Program-made: the position numbers and the translations under genes
Assembly (NCBI GenBank): GCA_903920145.1
Contig: CAIXKV010000241.1
Location: forward strand, 1 to 64,000
Source: an uncultured Rhodospirillales bacterium
GTDB lineage: Bacteria; Pseudomonadota; Alphaproteobacteria; Azospirillales; Azospirillaceae
Direction: 5' to 3'
DNA: 64,000 bases
The notes under the pieces: model-generated
Database searches by the model: none
What the model was told of the DNA's origin: nothing
Seen by the model: only the letters and a program-made list of their open reading frames with translations
In this document: positions 1,204 to 42,867 of the stretch, piece after piece
How positions within the stretch are numbered: the first letter of the stretch is position 1
Layout of the letters: each line of letters begins with the position of its first letter

Positions 1204-1417
1204 ACCGTCTCTTTTACCCCAAGCCGGCCCGCGCTCCAACCGTCGTGAATCGTCGAAGCAAACCCTTCGCCTGCTTGCGCGCCCGCTGTACCCGTACTAT
1301 GCAGATTGACCGGCGAGTCCATGGGCTGTGAGTCCAGGGGCAGGATGTCTGTGGGCGATTAGAGCGATGGGCGCTCGCCGCCCGGACGTTGCAGCGGTCG
1401 GCGGCGGGGGACGGGGC

Positions 1418-2062
1418 ATGGGCAAGGTCATCACCATCGCGCAACAAAAAGGCGGCGCCGGCAAGACCACGCTGACGGCCCATTTGGCCGTGGCTTGGGG
1501 ACAGAGCGGGCGCAGGGTTGCGGTGATCGACATTGATCCCCAAGGCAGCCTGTCAAGCTGGTTTCAGGTTCGGGCGACAGCCCTGGGGAGCACCGTCGGT
1601 TTGATCCATAGTCGGGTTGGTGGCTGGCGCACCGAGCGGGAAGCCGAGCGGTTGGCGCGGGAGTGCGATCTGGTGGTGATCGACAGTCCGCCCCATGCCG
1701 AAACCGAGGCGCGAATTGCGGTGCGGGTGGCCTCTTTGGTGGTGCTGCCGGTCCAGCCCAGTCCCATGGATATTTGGGCCACTCAACCGACCATTGATAT
1801 GGCCAAACAGGAAAAAGTGCGAAGCCTTCTGGTTCTTAATCGGGTGCCGCCCCGGAGCAAAATGACCGAGGATTTGGTCGGTGTGATTCGAGGACTGTTG
1901 ACCCCGCCTGTCGTCGACTTGGCCGACACCCGGATTGGCAATCGTGTTGCTTACGCTAGCGCCTTACTGGCGGGCCGGACTGCTGTTGAGACCGACCCCG
2001 GCTCGCCGGCAGCGGTCGAGATGACTGCGTTGGCCGAGGAAATTCTCCGCCGCCTGGGGTAG
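1418..2062 (+). CDS. ParA/MinD-family ATPase, standalone
   Basis: This is a 214-residue deviant Walker-type ATPase that probably positions a cargo such as DNA or a protein cluster. It starts with VITIAQQKGGAGKTTLTAHLA (deviant Walker A), followed by VAVIDIDPQGSLSSW (A') and LVVIDSPPH (Walker B). The ATG at 1418 puts the P-loop at residue 11, as usual in the family; longer versions only add a low-complexity leader. No ParB lies beside it. The nearest gene, 10 bp away and convergent, encodes a ribbon-helix-helix protein, which might be a DNA-binding partner, but that is inference. Housekeeping chromosome-segregation ParA normally sits with parB and gid genes, so this is an accessory ParA-type protein. 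Confidence 0.85.
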   Translation: MGKVITIAQQKGGAGKTTLTAHLAVAWGQSGRRVAVIDIDPQGSLSSWFQVRATALGSTVGLIHSRVGGWRTEREAERLARECDLVVIDSPPHAETEARIAVRVASLVVLPVQPSPMDIWATQPTIDMAKQEKVRSLLVLNRVPPRSKMTEDLVGVIRGLLTPPVVDLADTRIGNRVAYASALLAGRTAVETDPGSPAAVEMTALAEEILRRLG

Positions 2063-2072
2063 GGCGCTCCGG

Positions 2073-2609
2073 TTATGCCTTGGTCTTGTCAAGCGGGGCG
2101 ATGCTGTCCAACGCCCGCAGCATGGCCGGACTGAGGGCCGGTCGATCGTCGGAGGACTCCGACAAGCCCCGGTGCGGACGATCACGATCGGCGGCCTCTT
2201 TAAAATACCGGGTCAAATGGGTACGAATCGCCGTCACCAAGGCGGTGTTGCCGCGCGTCCGGTCGACCTCTGAGACGATGTCGTCTTCGCTGAGGCCCTG
2301 GCGCTGGCACAGCTCGTCCAGAGCTTGCCACACCGCAGGCTCTAGTCGAACCGTAAGGCTTCGGCCCCTCACCGTCAGAGTCTTGCTAATACGCATAATA
2401 CCATCGGGCCTTGATGGTGACTCATCAAGGCTGCCCTCAGACGCCGGGCGGGCGCATCCGCGCTCCTCTAGAGTCACACGGGGGCTTCGCGCGCCTGGAC
2501 GCGCGGGGCCGCCGTCGCGGCCCGATACCGGCGATGTGTCAGTATCAGGGCTCGCCGGTATAAGGCCAGAGGATTCCTCGTCGGAATCGGTGCTTTCGGA
2601 CTCGCTCAT
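2073..2609 (-). CDS. Ribbon-helix-helix protein with an interspersed repeat in its reading frame
   Basis: The conserved part is the last 106 residues, beginning at an internal Met (codon 2394-2396). It reads ISKTLTVRGRSLTVRLEP, then AVWQALDELCQRQGLSEDDIVSEVD, a pattern typical of the RHH_4 ribbon-helix-helix family of putative DNA binders. The frame stays open upstream through a full copy of the repeat (2398-2561, about 54 codons rich in G, A, R, P and S) to an ATG at 2609. That ATG has GGAA about 8 nt upstream and an acidic, Ser-rich leader (MSESESTDSDEESSG). From 2609 the protein is 178 residues. If translation begins at 2396 instead, it is 106 residues and the repeat is 5' leader; no good ribosome site is visible there. 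Both starts remain possible. Confidence 0.7.
   Translation of the reverse strand: MSESESTDSDEESSGLIPASPDTDTSPVSGRDGGPARPGARSPRVTLEERGCARPASEGSLDESPSRPDGIMRISKTLTVRGRSLTVRLEPAVWQALDELCQRQGLSEDDIVSEVDRTRGNTALVTAIRTHLTRYFKEAADRDRPHRGLSESSDDRPALSPAMLRALDSIAPLDKTKA
2398..2561. repeat. Interspersed modular hairpin repeat, full-length copy inside the RHH frame
   Basis: This is the reference copy, about 164 bp. Module A is CCTTGATG-GTGACT-CATCAAGG, a perfect 8-bp hairpin. Module B is GACGCCGGGCGGGCGCATCC and following GC-rich bases. Module C contains GGGCCGC-CGTC-GCGGCCC, a 7-bp perfect stem. Module D begins ATACCGGCGA and ends TCGCCGGTAT, a 10-bp perfect stem around a loop containing GTGTCAGTATCAGGGC. 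Other copies in the window carry all or some of these modules. Confidence 0.9.
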
Positions 2610-2874
2610 GGGATTTTCCGGTGGTTGCCGGCCAGATACTCGCCCCAAACAACCGATCCGCCACCGATTGCTATGGATGCTTAATAAAGAAGCTATACAT
2701 GCAATCGCATGCATCGATCAATACGGTTATGGAAGGCCGCCACCGACACGATCTTTCTGATTTCAATATGACAGGGTTGCGCCAGGCTGGTTATAGTGTG
2801 GCGCCGTGGTCGCGTCGGGGACCGGCACCGGCGGCAGCGGATTGTGATCGAGATTGACCGGGGGGTGGCGGCAA

Positions 2875-5028
2875 ATGACGGATTTTTCCAAGAAGACCTT
2901 GGCCGAGTGGACGGCGTTGGCCGGCAAAGACATTGGCAAGGGCGGTTCAGTTGACCAGTTATTATGGCGGACGCCGGAAGGCTTGACGGTTAAGCCGCTT
3001 TACACCGCCGCCGATCTGGAAGGGCTGGAACTGGACGGGCTGCCCGGTTTTCCGCCGTTTGCTCGCGGTCCTCGCGCCACCATGTATGCCCACCGGCCCT
3101 GGACCATTCGCCAGTATGCCGGCTTCTCGACCGCCGAAGAATCCAACGCTTTTTACCGCAAAAATCTCGCTGCCGGGCAAATGGGGCTTTCGGTGGCCTT
3201 CGATTTGGCCACCCATCGCGGCTATGACAGCGATCACCCTCGGGTGGTGGGCGATGTCGGCAAGGCCGGGGTGGCCATCGATAGCGTCGAAGATATGAAG
3301 ACCTTGTTCAGTGGCATTCCGCTCGACAAAATGAGCGTGTCGATGACCATGAATGGTGCGGTGCTGCCGGTTTTGGCCGGCTATGTGGTCGCCGCCGAGG
3401 AGCAGGGGGTGCGCCAGGATCAATTGGCCGGCACCATCCAGAATGATATTCTTAAAGAGTTCATGGTCCGCAACACGTATATTTATCCGCCCGAACCGTC
3501 GATGCGGATCATCGCTGATATTATCGAGTACACGGCACGCAATATGCCGAAGTTTAACTCGATTTCCATCAGCGGTTATCACATGCAGGAAGCGGGCGCC
3601 ACCGCTGTCCAAGAATTGGCCTTTACGCTGGCCGATGGGCTGGAATATGTCCGGGCAGCCCTGGGCAAAGGGCTGCGGGTTGATGAATTCGCGCCTCGGT
3701 TGTCGTTTTTCTTCTCCATCGGCATGAACTTCTTCATGGAGATCGCCAAGCTGCGCGCCGCCCGGCTGCTGTGGGCGCGGCACATGAAGCGATTGTTCGC
3801 GCCGACCGATGACCGCTCGCTGGCTCTGCGGACCCACTGTCAGACCTCGGGCGTGTCGCTGACCGAGCAGGATCCGTTCAATAACGTCATCCGCACCACT
3901 ATCGAGGCGATGGCGGCGGTTTTGGGCGGAACCCAATCCCTGCACACCAACGCCTATGACGAGGCGCTGGGCCTGCCGACCACCTTCTCGGCTCGGGTCG
4001 CCCGCAACACCCAGTTGATCATCGCCGAGGAAAGCGGCATTCCCCATGTGGTCGATCCGTTGGGCGGTTCGTATTATGTCGAGGCGCTGACCCACAGCTT
4101 GGCCACCGCCGCCGACGAATTAATCGCCAAGGTCGAAGGTTTGGGCGGAATGACCCGCGCCGTCGAGTCGGGTATGCCCAAGCTGTTGATTGAAGAAGCT
4201 GCCGCCCGGCGGCAAGCGGCCATCGATCGCGGTGACGAAGTGGTGGTCGGCGTCAACAAGTATAAGGTGTCAGAGGCTGATACCGCAGCGGTGGATGTGC
4301 TGGACATCGACAACAGCGCCGTGCGGATCGCCCAGGTGGAACGCCTGAAACAAATCCGGGCCAGCCGCGACGCCAATGCCTGCGCCGCTGCGCTGGAAGC
4401 CTTGACCAAGGCCGCCGCCGACAAGTCGGGCAATTTGCTGGAACTCGCCATCGTCGCCACCCGCGCCCGCGCCACCGTCGGCGAAATCTCCGATGCCCTG
4501 GAAGCGGTCTATGGCCGTCACAGCGCGGTGATTCGCTCGGTTTCGGGGGTTTATGGTGCGGCTTATGCCAATGATGACGGCTTTAAGCGCATTCAAGCCG
4601 ATGTTGCCAGCTTTGCCGAGGCCGAAGGGCGTCGGCCCCGCATGCTGGTGGTCAAAATGGGCCAGGACGGCCATGATCGCGGTGCCAAAGTGATCGCGAC
4701 CAGCTTTGCCGACATTGGCTTTGACGTGGATGTCGGGGCCTTGTTCCAAACCCCGGCAGAGGCGGCGCAGCAGGCGGTGGAGAACGACGTGCATATCGTC
4801 GGGGTCTCCAGCCAAGCCGCCGGTCACAAGACATTGGTGCCGCAGCTCATCGAAGAGTTGCGTAAGGCCGGAGCTGACGACATACTCGTGGTGTGCGGTG
4901 GGGTGATCCCGCCGCAGGATTATGACACTTTATACCAAGCTGGGGTTGCGGCGATTTTCGGACCCGGCACCAACATTCCGCAGGCGGCGGAAACGGTGTT
5001 GGCCCTTCTGAAAAAGCGTCCGACGTAA
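2875..5028 (+). CDS. scpA: Methylmalonyl-CoA mutase, single-chain catalytic subunit
   Basis: This adenosylcobalamin enzyme interconverts (R)-methylmalonyl-CoA and succinyl-CoA, the last step of propionyl-CoA assimilation and of the ethylmalonyl-CoA pathway. The 717-residue protein has the substrate-binding barrel (about 1-540, with [18 protein letters not shown] and [15 protein letters not shown]) and a C-terminal B12 domain. The lower-ligand motif is DGHDRG at about 598-603, followed by [14 protein letters not shown]. Both parts are present, so this is the active large-subunit type. The ATG at 2875 follows a GGGGGTGG purine stretch and matches the family N-terminus ([11 protein letters not shown]). 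Two other pathway enzymes, mcl2 and mch, lie about 30 kb away in the same window. Confidence 0.96.
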
Positions 5029-6208: not shown

Positions 6209-8902
6209 CGGATCTAGCAGCACGAACACCCCTCGGTCATCGGCCCGGCGGATCAGGCGGCCAAACGCCTGTTTCAGGCGCAGCCGGGTCAGCATGTCAT
6301 CATAACGCCGCCCACCGAAATGCTCGCGCCGGGCTTTGTGCAGGATGTTGGGGCGCGGCCACGGCACCCGGTCGAACACAATCAGTTGCAACGATCGGCC
6401 CGGCACATCCACGCCGTCCCGCACGGCATCGGTGCCCAACAGGCAGGCCTGTTCCTCGGCCCGGAAAATGTCGATCAGGGTGGCCACGTCCATGCCGTCC
6501 ACATGTTGAGCATATAGCGGCACGCCGGCGGCTTCCAGAGGCTCGGCGATCCGGGCTTGGATACCGCGCAACCGGGAAATGGCCGTGAACAACCCTAACG
6601 CGCCGCCATGGGCTGCCAGGAACAGATCCCGATAGGCCGCCGCGACTTGACCGAGATCATCTTTGCGGACATCGGTTACCACCAGCACGCGGGTATGGGT
6701 GGCGTAGTCGAAGGGCGACGGCACCGCCACTCGCCAGGTGGGGGTTGAGAAGTGAATGGCGCCGGTGCGGGATTCGGCGGCCTGCCAGTCCAGTTCGGGG
6801 TCGCCGCTGCCATCGGTCAGGGTGGCCGAAGTGATGGCCAAACCATGAGTTGGCCCCAACACCGCCTGACTGAAGGGCAAAGTCGGGTCGACGAAGTGGC
6901 GATACAGACCGACATCGACATCCCGTCCCTCGTGGCGCTCCAGGGCCAACCAGTCGACGAAACCGGGCTGGGTGTTGCCGGACAGGGCACCCAGCATATC
7001 GAGCCAAGGCAAGAGGGTTTGCTGAACCCGTCGGGTCAGTCCTCGGGACAGGGCGTCGATGCGTCGCCGTTGGTCGGGCTCCAGCACTGCGGCCTGATCT
7101 TCGAGTCCCATGGCCAGTACTGTGGCCAGCGTCATCAGCGGCTTGACCAACTCCCCCAGCGCCACAGACAGGGCCGCCGCCGTTTCGACCAAGGCGTCGG
7201 TGGGTGGCATGGTTTCGGTTTCAAGGCTGTAGGGGGAATCCGGGCCGGCGGTGCGGGCTAACACTTGGCGTCGGACCTGATCCAAAAAGCGTTCGGTGGG
7301 ACCGTTAGGATTGTCGGCAGCCAATCGCAACCGCCAGCCGTCGGCGGGCAGGATGCGGGCCGCCTGCAACACCTCGTCCAGTGCCTTTTCTGCGTCGTCG
7401 TCGGCGGCCACCAGATCATCCAGCCGCCGCCGCAAACCACGCGCTCGGCTGTTGGTACTGGTGCGGCCATCGGTATCGCCCAACAGCCAGCGCCGTAATT
7501 CCCGAGTCTCAAGGCCGGTGAGATGGGCGGCGAAGGCGCCGTCGGCGGCCTCGAAGACCTGATGTCCTTCGTCAAAGACGTAACGGGTCGGCAATCCGCT
7601 GTCTTCACTGCCGCCTTGGGCCGCCTGGATCATCACCAGAGCGTGATTGGCGATTACGATATCGGCCCGTCGTGCCCGGCGGATGCTTTTCTCGATGAAA
7701 CATCGATTGTAATGCTCACAACCAGAGTAAATGCACTCGCCCCGGCGATCGGCCAGCCCCAAGGTGGCGGCCCGCCCCAGGACATCCACCAGCCAGCCGG
7801 GAAAGTCCGATCCCTGGAGATCGCCATCTCGCGTGGCAGCGATCCAGCGCGCCAGGAGGGCCAAGCCGATCCGATAGCGCGGATCCAGGCTGCTGGCCCG
7901 GATGGCTTCTTCGTAATTCAAAAGGCACAGATAGTTTTCCCGTCCCTTGCGGAGCACCACCTTGCGGGCCTTGATGCTCGGGTCGGGATAGAGCCGATCC
8001 AATTCGGCATCGATTTGATGTTGAAGATTGCGGGTATAGGTGGAAATCCAGACCGTGCCCCGGTTCTTTTCCGCCCATAGGCTGGCTGGTGCCAGATAGC
8101 CAAGGGTTTTGCCAACCCCGGTTCCGGCTTCGGCTAGAACCAGATGGGGTTCATTGGCCTCGGTTCGGGGGGCAAAAGCGGCAGATAGGGCGTCGGCATA
8201 GTCCGATTGCTGGGGTCGGGCTTCGGACGCATAGCCTTCGGTGGCGGTCCCTCCAGCCCCACTTCCCCCTGTTCGCCGGGGCGCCGCCACCAACTGGGCG
8301 AGGCGACGCCGAGCCTCACCCGGTTCCAAGGCCAATGGAGCCGGCGTTGGCTCGGGGGCTTCCATCGACCATTCGGGCAAGTTCCGCCACACCGCCAACC
8401 CGGCATCGCCAGTCTTGTGGCTGGGGCCGCCGGGCACTCCCAGCGCGGGAAGCACCATGGGCGCCCAAGGCCATCCCGCCACGCCCAGAGTCCAGGCCAA
8501 TGCTACCGGGTCGGCGCGCTCGTCTTTTTGAGCCCCGGTTTTCTGCCGATCAGCAAGACGGTCCAACAACGCTTCGGTGACGTGGAACAGCGTCACCGCC
8601 GCTTCGGTTGGAGTCGTGGGGATGGGCAGGTTCAGGAAACGCGCCAATCCTCGAGGAGTCGGCAGACAAAACTGGGCCGGGCAAACGAAAGCAAACAGCT
8701 CCAGGACATCGAAAGCCTCGAGCCGGTCTACTCCCAAACGGCGAGCCAAATTCGGGGCGTGGCACACCATCACCGCCCGGTCGGCCAACAGGCGACGGGC
8801 GGTGGCGATCTCCCAGGTTTCCACCTCGCCATCGGGGCTGACCAGGACAAGCTGTCGGGGACCGGCCACCACTGCCGGGATATCGGAAAAAAGATATGGC
8901 AT
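6107..8902 (-). CDS. dinG: DinG/YoaA-family ATP-dependent DNA helicase with an N-terminal extension
   Basis: This is an XPD-like superfamily 2 helicase expected to act in DNA repair. The 931-residue protein has Walker A AEAGTGVGKT (about 257-268), iron-sulfur cluster cysteines (one near 325 in RENYLCLLNYEE, then GECIYSGCEHYNRC at about 389-402), a DEGH box in YVFDEGHQVF (about 444) and C-terminal helicase motifs ending with LKQAFGRLIRRADDRGVFVLLD. All four expected Fe-S cysteines are visible. The first 190 residues are not helicase. Their pattern (HAPNLARRL, AFDVLELFAFVCP, LARFLNLP, AAVTLFHVTEALL) resembles a worn DnaQ-type exonuclease domain, as fused to DinG in some Firmicutes, without clear catalytic acidic residues; that reading is tentative. 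Confidence 0.9.
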   Translation of the reverse strand: MPYLFSDIPAVVAGPRQLVLVSPDGEVETWEIATARRLLADRAVMVCHAPNLARRLGVDRLEAFDVLELFAFVCPAQFCLPTPRGLARFLNLPIPTTPTEAAVTLFHVTEALLDRLADRQKTGAQKDERADPVALAWTLGVAGWPWAPMVLPALGVPGGPSHKTGDAGLAVWRNLPEWSMEAPEPTPAPLALEPGEARRRLAQLVAAPRRTGGSGAGGTATEGYASEARPQQSDYADALSAAFAPRTEANEPHLVLAEAGTGVGKTLGYLAPASLWAEKNRGTVWISTYTRNLQHQIDAELDRLYPDPSIKARKVVLRKGRENYLCLLNYEEAIRASSLDPRYRIGLALLARWIAATRDGDLQGSDFPGWLVDVLGRAATLGLADRRGECIYSGCEHYNRCFIEKSIRRARRADIVIANHALVMIQAAQGGSEDSGLPTRYVFDEGHQVFEAADGAFAAHLTGLETRELRRWLLGDTDGRTSTNSRARGLRRRLDDLVAADDDAEKALDEVLQAARILPADGWRLRLAADNPNGPTERFLDQVRRQVLARTAGPDSPYSLETETMPPTDALVETAAALSVALGELVKPLMTLATVLAMGLEDQAAVLEPDQRRRIDALSRGLTRRVQQTLLPWLDMLGALSGNTQPGFVDWLALERHEGRDVDVGLYRHFVDPTLPFSQAVLGPTHGLAITSATLTDGSGDPELDWQAAESRTGAIHFSTPTWRVAVPSPFDYATHTRVLVVTDVRKDDLGQVAAAYRDLFLAAHGGALGLFTAISRLRGIQARIAEPLEAAGVPLYAQHVDGMDVATLIDIFRAEEQACLLGTDAVRDGVDVPGRSLQLIVFDRVPWPRPNILHKARREHFGGRRYDDMLTRLRLKQAFGRLIRRADDRGVFVLLDPLMPSRLYGAFPSKIEVRRVGLAEAVRITRDFLS

Positions 8903-9002: not shown

Positions 9003-11114
9003 TCAGGTCTGTCGTCGGACAGTGGTCGCAAACATCTTGCTGACCATGGGGCGTCCCAGCAAAAACCCTTGGGCCACATCACAGGCGCAAGCATCCAGAA
9101 AGGCCAGTTGCTCTGTACTCTCGACGCCTTCGGCCACCACCGTCAATGCCAGCCGATGGGCCATGGCGACGATGGCTTCGGTCAGGGCGGCGGCGTCGGC
9201 ACTGGTGGTGACATCGCGAATGAAGGAACGGTCGATCTTGAGAGTCTTCAAGGCAAAGCGGCGCAGGTAACTAAGGGACGAATAGCCCGTACCAAAATCA
9301 TCCACCGATAGCCCGATCCCCATATCCACCAATTCCCGCAAAATATTAACCACGCGCGGGACGTCATCCAGCAACAGGCTTTCGGTGATTTCCAAATGCA
9401 ATTGATCACTGGAAAGGCCGTTATGACTCAGGGCCTTGGCGGTGATTTTGGCAAGGTCTCCGGTGGCAAACTGACGGCTGGATACATTGACCGCAATGTG
9501 GGACAGGCACAACCCGCTATCCAACCATACCCGCATGTCTCGACAAGCCTGATGCAGAACCCATTCCCCGATGGGAACAATCAGCCCGCTTTCCTCAGCG
9601 AGCGGAATAAAGCGCACCGGCGGCACTTCGCCAAGGTCGGGGTTGATCCAGCGCAGCAACGCTTCGGCTCCAATGATTCGCCCCGAAGTGACGGCCACCA
9701 AGGGCTGATAACAGAGGTGAAACTCGTCATGCTCAAGGGCATGCCGAAGCCGGGACTCCATGGACATGCGGACCCGCGCTTTTTCATTCAGGGCTTGAGT
9801 GAAAAAGCGTGCAATGTTGCGGCCATCGGCTTTGGCCTGATACATGGCGACATCGGCGTTGCGCATAAGAATGTGAGGGTCATCTCCATCAAGTGGCGCC
9901 ACTGTGACGCCAATACTGGTTGAGCTGAAAATCTCATGCTCTTCAATACGGAACGGTGCCGCAAAGGCCGCCGCGATTTTCTCGATGACGACTTCCGATT
10001 GTAGGGGGGAGCGCAATCCGGTCAAGACCACCACAAATTCATCCCCGCCAAAGCGGGCCACGGTGTCTTCTTCCCGCACGCAGTGTTCTAGGCGCCGAGC
10101 GGATTCCCGAAGCAACTGGTCGCCGGCATCGTGACCCAGAGTGTCATTGATCCGCTTGAAATGGTCGATATCGATAAATAGCACGGCCACCAGCGTATTT
10201 TCCCGGCGCATCCGTGCCAGAGCTTGGGTCAGACGATCCAGAATCAATAATCGATTGGGTAGGTTGGTTAATTGGTCATAGTGAGCTTGGCGCAATAACT
10301 GTTCTTCATGATGTTTCCGAACCGTGATGTCTTCTTTAACCGCAACAAAGTGAGTTATGATTCCAGAAGGGGCGGCGATCGGCGAGATCGAAGCAAATTC
10401 CCAATACCGGGTTCCGTCTTTTCGAAGGCTATGCAATTCACCGCGCCAAACCTGACCAGAGAGAATCGTTTTCCAAATATCTTGATATTGTTCTTGTATG
10501 GCATAGTCGGTCTGTAATAATTTTAGATTATGACCGATGACTTTATCAGAGTCATAGCCGGTCACTTCAAAAAACTTTGAATTAGCATATTCAATAATAC
10601 CATCAACGTCAGTGATCAGTACCGATGCTGGGCTTTGTTCCACAGCCAAAGAAAGCTTTTGTAAGGTCTCTTCGGCCCGCTGGCGCTCGATCATTTCGGT
10701 CCGTAACTCTTGGGCTCGGACTTCAGCCCGGCGTTCCAATTCATCATGGGCGAGGCGCAGGGCGTTATGTTCGCGAAGAGCCTGTATTTCTCCGTCACGC
10801 CGTTGCTCTCCGGCGCGATCGGTGATCACAACCACCAAACCGCCCTTTTCGGCAGGATATTGGTCGATCTCGATGCCATCTCGCTCTTGCAGCACTCCCG
10901 ACACCTGTCCATCGACGTCCAGTCGGAAGAGGTCGTGGAACAGGACTCCCCGAACCACGGCGCCGATCCCGAGCAGAGCGCCAAATGCCCGATTGGAGAA
11001 TACCAGCGCCCGATCCCCGTCAAACACGGCGAACCCCTGGTCCAGCCGGTCCACGCCGGTTTGGATTAAGCCAAGATTCTGCCAAATCGGCGTAGAGGTG
11101 TGATCCTGAGACAT
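9003..11114 (-). CDS. PAS-GGDEF-EAL cyclic-di-GMP signalling protein
   Basis: This 703-residue protein probably makes and/or degrades cyclic-di-GMP. The order is an N-terminal PAS-like segment (about 15-90, RLDQGFAVFDGDRALVFSN), a coiled coil (about 100-145), a PAS domain with PAC tail (about 146-265, SPASVLITDVDGIIEYANSK), a GGDEF domain with an intact RFGGDEF (about 355-361) and an EAL domain with GAEALLRW (about 483). The inhibitory I-site is present: REED lies exactly five residues before GGDEF. EAL catalytic stretches (VNVSSRQF, ITESLLLDD, VDDFGTGYSSLSYLRR) look complete, so both activities are plausible. No membrane segment is seen, so it should be cytosolic. The FHA-domain gene lies upstream on the same strand, 106 bp away. 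Confidence 0.95.
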   Translation of the reverse strand: MSQDHTSTPIWQNLGLIQTGVDRLDQGFAVFDGDRALVFSNRAFGALLGIGAVVRGVLFHDLFRLDVDGQVSGVLQERDGIEIDQYPAEKGGLVVVITDRAGEQRRDGEIQALREHNALRLAHDELERRAEVRAQELRTEMIERQRAEETLQKLSLAVEQSPASVLITDVDGIIEYANSKFFEVTGYDSDKVIGHNLKLLQTDYAIQEQYQDIWKTILSGQVWRGELHSLRKDGTRYWEFASISPIAAPSGIITHFVAVKEDITVRKHHEEQLLRQAHYDQLTNLPNRLLILDRLTQALARMRRENTLVAVLFIDIDHFKRINDTLGHDAGDQLLRESARRLEHCVREEDTVARFGGDEFVVVLTGLRSPLQSEVVIEKIAAAFAAPFRIEEHEIFSSTSIGVTVAPLDGDDPHILMRNADVAMYQAKADGRNIARFFTQALNEKARVRMSMESRLRHALEHDEFHLCYQPLVAVTSGRIIGAEALLRWINPDLGEVPPVRFIPLAEESGLIVPIGEWVLHQACRDMRVWLDSGLCLSHIAVNVSSRQFATGDLAKITAKALSHNGLSSDQLHLEITESLLLDDVPRVVNILRELVDMGIGLSVDDFGTGYSSLSYLRRFALKTLKIDRSFIRDVTTSADAAALTEAIVAMAHRLALTVVAEGVESTEQLAFLDACACDVAQGFLLGRPMVSKMFATTVRRQT

Positions 11115-13338: not shown

Positions 13339-13620
13339 ATGACCAAGTCGGAGTTGATCCTGCGGTTATCGGAGCGCAATCCGCACCTTTACCAGCGCGA
13401 TATCGAAAAAATCGTCGGCACCATCTTTGACGAAATCACCGAAGCGTTGGCGCGAGGTGATCGGGTCGAGTTGCGAGGTTTTGGGGCTTTTTCGATTAAA
13501 CGTCGCGATGCCCGCACGGGTCGCAATCCCAGGACTGGGGAAGCCGTGACCGTCACCGAGAAATACATCCCTTTCTTCAAGACTGGCAAGCAGTTGCGAG
13601 AGCGAATCAACGTCGATTGA
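13339..13620 (+). CDS. ihfB: Integration host factor beta subunit
   Basis: This 93-residue DNA-bending protein of the HU/IHF family forms a heterodimer with IhfA and assists recombination, replication and sigma-54 promoter activation. [23 protein letters not shown] is the conserved beta-arm core, and [11 protein letters not shown] ends the protein. The ATG at 13339 gives the canonical [15 protein letters not shown] start; a longer open frame upstream is non-coding leader. Its presence near nif genes is coincidental, but IHF normally assists NifA-sigma-54 promoters such as the one at 23.7 kb. Confidence 0.93.
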
Positions 13621-15232: not shown

Positions 15233-15337
15233 ATACCATCGGGCCTTGATGGTGACTCATCAAGGCTGCCCTCAGACGCCGGGCCGCCGTCGCGGCCCGA
15301 GGACCGGCGATGTGTCAGTATCAGGGCTCGCCGGTAT
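15233..15337. repeat. Interspersed repeat, copy lacking most of modules B-C
   Basis: It begins ATACCATCGGGCCTTGATGG and ends CTCGCCGGTAT. Module A and module D are complete, while about 60 bp of the GC-rich middle is missing, leaving GACGCCGGGCCGCCGTCGCG. It sits upstream of the YciI-like gene. Confidence 0.9.
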
Positions 15338-15433
15338 CATCAAAAATAAAAAGGAGGGCGACCTGGCGGCCGCCCTCCCACTTTATCGCTAAAACCAGCC
15401 TTTCCTGTGTCGGAAAGGTGATCTTAGACCGAT

Positions 15434-18320: not shown

Positions 18321-18488
18321 ATATCATCGGGCCTTGATGGTGATTCATCAAGGCTGCCCTCAAACGCCGGGCGGGCGCATCCGCGCCCCCGAGAGTCCAC
18401 AACACTGGGGCTTCGCGTCCACGAGGACGCGGGGCCGCCGTCGCGGCCCGAGGACCGGCGATGTGTCAGTATCAGGGCTCGCCGGTAT
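18321..18488. repeat. Interspersed repeat, full-length copy
   Basis: All four modules are present, from ATCATCGGGCCTTGATGGTG to CTCGCCGGTAT. Module A has one change in its loop (GTGATT for GTGACT). Module C reads CTTCGCGTCCACGAGGACGC, where compensating changes keep the GCGTCC/GGACGC stem although other copies have GCGCGC...GCGCGC, so the hairpin rather than its sequence is conserved. It ends 21 bp before the YeeE-like start, so it forms that gene's leader. Confidence 0.9.
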
Positions 18489-18992: not shown

Positions 18993-19535
18993 ATGCGTTT
19001 TATCATTGCGGGCCTGATGGCCGGGCTGCTGTTTGGCGTTGGTTTGGCTGTTTCGGGTATGACTGACCCTCATATCGTTCTCGGCTTTTTGGACGTGGCG
19101 GGCGACTGGAATCCTGCGTTGGCCTTGGTGATGATCGGTGCTTTGGCCGTTGCAACGCCGGGTTATAGGTTGATTTTTAAGCGCGGACGACCCTTATGGG
19201 CCGACAGTTTCGCCCTACCCACCGCCAAAATTATCGACTGGCGATTGATGATCGGAGCCGCCCTATTCGGTACAGGCTGGGGGTTGTCCGGGTATTGTCC
19301 GGGACCGGCCTTATCGGCCTTATCGGCCTTGTGGCCCGGAACCCTGGTTTTCGTTGTTGCCACCGGGGTTGGGCTGGTTGTGGCAAAGGGGCTCATACCA
19401 TCGAGCTTTAATAATGTGTTAACACGAAAGCGGCCCTCAGATGCCGGGCGGGCGCGTCTGCGCCCTTGGCTCCGCGCACATAGGCGCGCGGGGCCGCCGT
19501 CGCCGCCCGATACCGGCACTGTGTCACTGTTATAG
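18993..19535 (+). CDS. YeeE/YedE-type (DUF6691) transporter with repeat-encoded C-terminus
   Basis: This inner-membrane protein is the partner of the preceding gene. Residues 1-134 have about four membrane segments, the family start RFIIAGLMAGLLFGVGLAVSGM, and the conserved GWGLSGYCPGPA with its cysteine (about 97-108). At residue 135 the frame enters an interspersed repeat and continues for 46 codons (rich in R, P, A and S) to a TAG in the loop of module D, giving 180 residues. Family members end near where the repeat begins, so the original stop has probably been lost or displaced. The tail should lie outside the membrane after the last segment. AGGGGAAG upstream supports the ATG at 18993. 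Confidence 0.88.
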   Translation: MRFIIAGLMAGLLFGVGLAVSGMTDPHIVLGFLDVAGDWNPALALVMIGALAVATPGYRLIFKRGRPLWADSFALPTAKIIDWRLMIGAALFGTGWGLSGYCPGPALSALSALWPGTLVFVVATGVGLVVAKGLIPSSFNNVLTRKRPSDAGRARLRPWLRAHRRAGPPSPPDTGTVSLL

Positions 19536-19546
19536 CTCGCCGGTAT
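19395..19546. repeat. Interspersed repeat overlapping the 3' end of the second YeeE-like gene
   Basis: It starts ATACCATCGAGC and ends CTCGCCGGTAT. Module A is badly diverged (CTTTAATAATGTGTTAACAC), while B, C and D are recognisable. It supplies the last 46 codons and the stop of the YeeE-like gene and ends 20 bp before the nifW stop on the opposite strand. Confidence 0.88.
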
Positions 19547-42705: not shown

Positions 42706-42867
42706 ACCATCGGGCCTTGATGGTGACTCATCAAGGCTGCCCTCAGACGCCGGGCGGGCGCATCCGCGCCCCCTAGAGTCCCCATTGGGGCTTCGTGCGC
42801 ATGGGCGCGCGGGGCCATCGTCGCGGCCCAAGGACCGGCACTGTGTCAGTGTTAGGGCTCCGGCATC
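42706..42867. repeat. Interspersed repeat, full-length copy
   Basis: Modules A, B and C are intact. The C region reads CTTCGTGCGCATGGGCGCGC, and module D is partly degraded (ACCGGCACTGTGTCAGTGTT and CTCCGGCATC), so its stem is shortened. It begins five bases after the SbcC-like stop. On the minus strand it stays open in the same frame as the RHH copy. Confidence 0.9.

Follow-up and report, generated by a model that had tools for sequence, protein, structure and literature searches.

A non-autonomous DNA transposon (MITE) of about 147-165 bp, which appears to have been mobile recently, has inserted in a gene for an RHH_4 DNA-binding protein and in at least eight other genes of a Rhodospirillales genome, with the reading frame kept and the insert probably translated as a disordered segment of some 50 residues. 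We assign this reading a probability of about 0.87. The window analyzed here is a stretch of 64,000 nucleotides of contig C241, and the genome comprises 4.26 Mb in 269 contigs (99% complete).

The RHH_4 gene (PF13467) lies on the minus strand at 2073..2609 and encodes 178 amino acids plus a stop codon; its neighbors are a ParA-like gene (1328-2062, plus strand) and a methylmalonyl-CoA mutase-like gene (2854-5028, plus strand), both named from their translations only. As the preliminary description of this DNA had stated, the frame running from 2609 to 2073 is free of stops across the entire repeat copy. Since the DNA is GC-rich, an open frame alone is weak evidence, and the claim rests on the comparison with orthologues. 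In the G001 and G003 orthologues, both from the same genus, the junction of leader and domain is uninterrupted (MDDLENTKFNPPPGL-VRIDRTLTISGRPRSVRLEPSVWQALDEV and MNDPDNANPNETPTGL-VRVGRVLTINGRTVTVRLEPAAWQAFDEV, respectively), while the window protein reads MSESESTDSDEESSGL-(55 residues)-MRISKTLTVRGRSLTVRLEPAVWQALDEL. The same-genus orthologues use the same upstream ATG as start codon, at a position common to all of them, and have a similar leader of 15-16 residues; the insert is also absent from more distant RHH_4 homologues within the family. Because the orthologues share the start and the leader but not the insert, 165 nt (55 codons) entered between the leader and the RHH domain. Orthologues all starting at the internal Met, which the preliminary description had named as counting against its proposal, were not what we found.

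By the orthologue comparison, the native N-terminal leader MSESESTDSDEESSGL comprises 16 codons (2562..2609, minus strand) and is followed by the predicted translated insertion IPASPDTDTSPVSGRDGGPARPGARSPRVTLEERGCARPASEGSLDESPSRPDGI of 55 codons (2397..2561, minus strand), which corresponds to residues 17-71; the RHH_4 domain occupies residues 75-135 (2205..2387, minus strand; Pfam match, E 1.1e-12). The net insert is made up of a 162-bp MITE copy with the ends TACC...GGTA (2399..2560, minus strand) and 3 bp of TTA. This triplet is the target-site duplication, with its 5′ copy in gene orientation at 2561..2563 and its 3′ copy, which overlaps the internal ATG at 2394-2396, at 2396..2398 (both minus strand). 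The insert first described as a 164-bp copy adding about 54 residues is real, with the lengths corrected to 162 bp and 55 codons, and the empty site in same-genus orthologues together with the nine further in-frame copies described below bears out the idea that a mobile-looking repeat was inserted into the gene of a DNA-binding protein. In an AlphaFold2 model, the RHH part has pLDDT values of 93-97 and the insert has values of 51-60 without secondary structure; the insert is predicted to be disordered and the RHH fold to be intact. If translated, the insert contributes peptide stretches that include SPDTDTSPVSGR and PASEGSLDESPSRPDG.

At least 51 BLAST matches of the repeat were found in its own genome, with 40 of 866 candidates scored. 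Searching with a profile built from 30 copies gave 444 matches in 344 blocks within 1.43 Mb (34% of the genome). In a repeat-independent sample of 0.80 Mb, there were 199 blocks (73 close to full length), together making up 3.3% of the bases; scaled up, this corresponds to roughly 1,060 whole or partial blocks and 390 full copies genome-wide. Many contigs terminate in the element, which is probably why the assembly is fragmented. Both ends could be located in 108 copies, and 74 of these are flanked by exact 3-bp duplications, every one of them TNA (TGA 44, TCA 13, TTA 11 and TAA 6). The aligned ends read TNA-[TACC...GGTA]-TNA, and 22 of 30 bases are identical between the two terminal inverted repeats. 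The main size classes are 147, 162 and 165 bp, no transposase frame is present inside the element, and the whole element folds as a chain of hairpins (-83.8 kcal/mol and z -3.4 for the RHH copy). Thus, beyond what the preliminary description had proposed, the element has the features of a MITE: it is short, lacks a transposase gene, and has terminal inverted repeats and a target-site duplication.

With the 3-bp duplication, the three main sizes add 150, 165 and 168 bp, each a multiple of three, and the net insertion length is 0 mod 3 in 65 of the 108 copies. Two frames, one per strand (phase 2 in the numbering used), are open in most copies and two more are open in some; the remaining two are almost never open, with TGEP* or TIEP* occurring at once. 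Since the element and its duplication together span a multiple of three, and since at least two frames are free of stops in the majority of copies, the RHH_4 gene stays readable. Within the window, full-length copies are also found at 18321..18488 and at 19395..19546, the latter with a TNA duplication, and an intergenic copy is found at 42706..42860 (all minus strand). The intergenic copy had been described as encoding the same peptide; this is true of the final two thirds of the frame (GRDDGPARPCARSP..RGCARPASEGSLDESPSRPDG), but in the first third an indel shifts the frame. At positions 1-195, two tandem 84-bp copies contain only the middle part of the element (profile from about 35), without the terminal repeats.

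At the threshold used, and with 22 candidates scored per genome, there were 22 element matches in G001, mostly diverged, two in G002, and none in G003 and G004. On its own, the middle module (roughly 39-112 of the 147-bp consensus) recurs, whole or in part, as a widespread repeat in further genera of the family and outside it (G005, G015, G017, G020, G021, G022 and G041; for example, L243, L244, L247 and L248). An older REP-like repeat may thus have been taken up by the MITE between its two ends. The TNA duplication agrees with the target of the IS1031 group of the IS5 family, for which a 3-bp TNA target duplication is typical (PMC12016507). A DDE (IS1031-like) transposase acting in trans may mobilize the MITE. 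IS1031 members differ from it in being full insertion sequences with a transposase, and the quoted ends differ as well (ISLrh: GAACCTGTC...; PMC12016507). Searches for DUF4096, DDE_Tnp_1 and DDE_Tnp_1_2 and for paired ends 0.4-3.5 kb apart revealed no convincing autonomous partner with the same ends and no intact IS1031-group member with MITE-matching ends, two thirds of the genome being covered by the family search only. The only strict inward pair of ends (L064, 13559-15379) encloses a substrate-binding/OmpA-type gene, named from its translation, and not a transposase. Near this gene lie isolated first hairpins of the element (13559-13616 and 15325-15379), the second of which is in frame near the N-terminus of the gene product (MMPASHDSDRSPVSG...). 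In addition, a degraded IS5-like DDE_Tnp_1_2 remnant with a stop codon is present on contig C161 of the same genome at about 7933-8133 (L256, L258), and its ends do not match those of the MITE.

The search for other genes containing the repeat, which the preliminary description had suggested, revealed nine further gene-internal copies in eight genes within the 1.43 Mb, all of them in frame and open, with coding sequence on both sides. The hosts were named by Pfam/NCBIfam. They are a TPR/glycosyltransferase-41 protein (L065; frame YRQALTPTHRRY..), a DUF4175/TIGR02302-like protein (L113; DUF4175 666 bits), an NRPS with two insertions (L113), one of them a short distance ahead of the HHxxxDG motif in a condensation domain, a GTP cyclohydrolase II-like protein (L117), an AAA/histidine kinase in which the element is reversed (L118), TssM with an internally deleted copy (L137; TIGR03348 700 bits), HypF (L177; TIGR00143 693 bits), and an uncharacterized protein without a family match that carries a partial copy (L085). 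For all seven hosts other than the NRPS, same-genus or same-family orthologues align straight across the site without an insert. In-frame insertions absent from orthologues, the pattern of the Rickettsia RPE, are therefore found in the RHH gene and seven others; the NRPS gene is without an orthologue. The sequence data demonstrate the insertion itself, the structure of the element, the target duplication, the absence from orthologues and the preservation of the frame.

We did not recognize a frame-breaking copy within a single gene in the 1.43 Mb sample. Eight copies initially classified as same-strand but not open were inspected as possible gene breaks, and none is a recognizable break inside one gene. 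In several of them the upstream gene uses the duplicated TGA as its stop, and others lie between two genes; in some, the element's own stop ends the gene, or the flank looks antisense. A duplicated TGA or TAA is the stop codon of the adjoining gene in 4 of 62 testable copies, and because this triplet is duplicated, the insertion restores the stop codon. Copies at a TGA stop codon are found at L071 11789, L071 15761, L079 2281 and L174 6784. An ATG also arises at the right-hand junction of the element, GGT-ATGA. In L117, the GTP cyclohydrolase II-like gene carries one copy internally and in frame and another whose duplicated TGA serves as the stop codon of the gene (9959-10105 and 10921-11069).

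Translation of the insert and its tolerance by the host protein are inferred from these sequence data. For the RHH gene, the start codon is taken to be the upstream ATG because the orthologues start there and because the upstream DNA of G001 is identical: a 22-nt stretch, CTGGCCGGCAACCACCGGAAAA, located four bases before the ATG, is the same in the window and in the G001 orthologue. The upstream ribosome site reported earlier is indeed present, although weak (CCGGAAAATCCCATG). It could be argued that the insert is an untranslated leader, with the internal ATG at 2394-2396 as the working start and the upstream frame open by chance. This ATG is immediately before the conserved RHH part, long chance open frames are common in GC-rich DNA, and the strongly structured element RNA could hinder translation from the upstream ATG. 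However, the internal ATG is not preceded by a good ribosome site, the orthologues use the upstream ATG and the sequence before it is conserved, and an internal start cannot explain why the element is in frame deep within seven other genes with orthologues. We therefore consider an untranslated leader unlikely, though it is the strongest competitor of a translated insert.

We compared the observed insertions with random insertions simulated at TNA sites of long genes, in which 28% were in frame and open when the other copies were used and 49% when only the three dominant lengths were used. The sampled contigs had partly been picked for open-frame matches, and the unbiased part is 0.80 Mb. In these unbiased contigs, four copies are in frame (L065, L085, L137 and L177) versus none recognized as broken, a weaker result, for which the chance is between 0.006 (0.28^4) and 0.06 (0.49^4). 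As an estimate only, the four in 0.80 Mb correspond to some 20 gene-internal insertions across the whole genome. No indel relative to the consensus is seen in the six full-length gene copies analyzed; among the other copies, 42% are of a length that is not a multiple of three. In five gene copies (the window copy was left out), there were 11 synonymous and 24 non-synonymous differences, which is approximately neutral by rough expectation. Since these few substitutions show no clear excess of synonymous changes, nothing at the codon level speaks positively for selection on the peptide, and it appears that the frame is kept while the added peptide is near-neutral or unconstrained. Some gene copies are 1-3 bases off the consensus (L117, L113), which indicates that their insertion was recent.

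These data also bear on whether the added peptide was co-opted for a function, for example as a linker or regulatory tail. Its position between the leader and the DNA-binding domain and its retention in several genes would fit such a role, but the same peptide is present in unrelated proteins, the changes in the gene copies look neutral and some copies are very recent, so that co-option seems quite improbable. Still less probable is that RNA splicing before translation, or ribosome bypass over the hairpins during it, takes out the element and gives proteins without the insert. The element is compact and mobile with strong hairpins, and T4 gene 60 and yeast mitochondria offer known examples of bypassing elements. 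However, all nine of the further gene-internal copies preserve the frame and are free of stops, for which there would be no need if the element were taken out, and an Rfam search of the window gave no match, to an intron or otherwise. Finally, an assembly artefact in which repeats at contig ends were mis-joined into genes can practically be dismissed: the assembly has 269 contigs, many ending in the element, but a mis-join would neither unite two halves of the same gene, as seen in every case with an orthologue, nor duplicate the target, as seen in the perfect TNA duplications on both sides of the full-length gene copies.

In the explanation favored here, that of a MITE translated within its host genes, the element targets TNA and duplicates those 3 bp. 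One copy landed in codons 16-17 of the RHH_4 gene, whose product probably gained a 55-residue disordered linker that separates the acidic leader from the RHH domain; an equivalent in-frame insertion took place in no fewer than eight further genes. The majority of copies lie outside genes, and the gene-internal ones persist because the frame is kept, the added residues appearing near-neutral. A more far-reaching version is tentative and somewhat doubtful: the element family may have been molded so that its translation does no harm, through size classes that with the duplication are multiples of three and through several stop-free frames, so that it could spread within as well as between genes and supply new disordered segments throughout the genome of a bacterium outside Rickettsiales.

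The likeness to the coding palindromes of Rickettsia noted in the preliminary description is strengthened by the nine additional in-frame copies. The RPE are described as palindromes of about 105-150 bp that lie in frame in many unrelated protein genes and also in intergenic regions (Ogata et al. 2000, reviewed in PMC2229807 and PMC10969869). Like them, the MITE is found in frame in unrelated genes and between genes, has structured RNA, and resides in host genes presumed to be functional. It differs in that its host belongs to another lineage with a GC-rich genome of ordinary size, its copy number is much higher than the quoted RPE counts, and it has clear terminal inverted repeats and TNA duplications, while the target duplication of RPE is listed as unknown in PMC2229807. 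Given the different lineage and GC content, homology to the RPE families proper is unlikely. The Wolbachia WPE, likewise palindromic repeats, lie in frame in conserved genes such as addA, addB and priA and are mostly stop-free (Ogata et al. 2005, cited in PMC4224334), but their host is a Rickettsiales endosymbiont. Among MITEs, the ERIC elements of enterobacteria and the 107-bp Correia/NEMIS elements of Neisseria have open frames that fuse with genes (PMC2229807). They share terminal inverted repeats, target duplications and such fusions with the present element, but differ in hosts and sequence, and the present element duplicates TNA and has three main sizes that all add multiples of three. 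A literature search with subscription journals largely outside its scope returned no paper on palindromic elements in Rhodospirillales. What is new is the lineage, the sequence of the element and its clear transposition anatomy; the principle is already known from RPE, WPE and ERIC/Correia.

For the best-known coding palindromes, those of Rickettsia and Wolbachia, the meaning is confused by reductive endosymbiont evolution and by an unclear mechanism of mobility. The Rhodospirillales case comes from a genome of ordinary size and combines clear terminal repeats and target duplications with empty sites in the same genus. With this anatomy and these empty sites, one can ask directly at what frequency bacteria gain protein segments from transposable elements, and which of these additions an enzyme such as HypF can tolerate.
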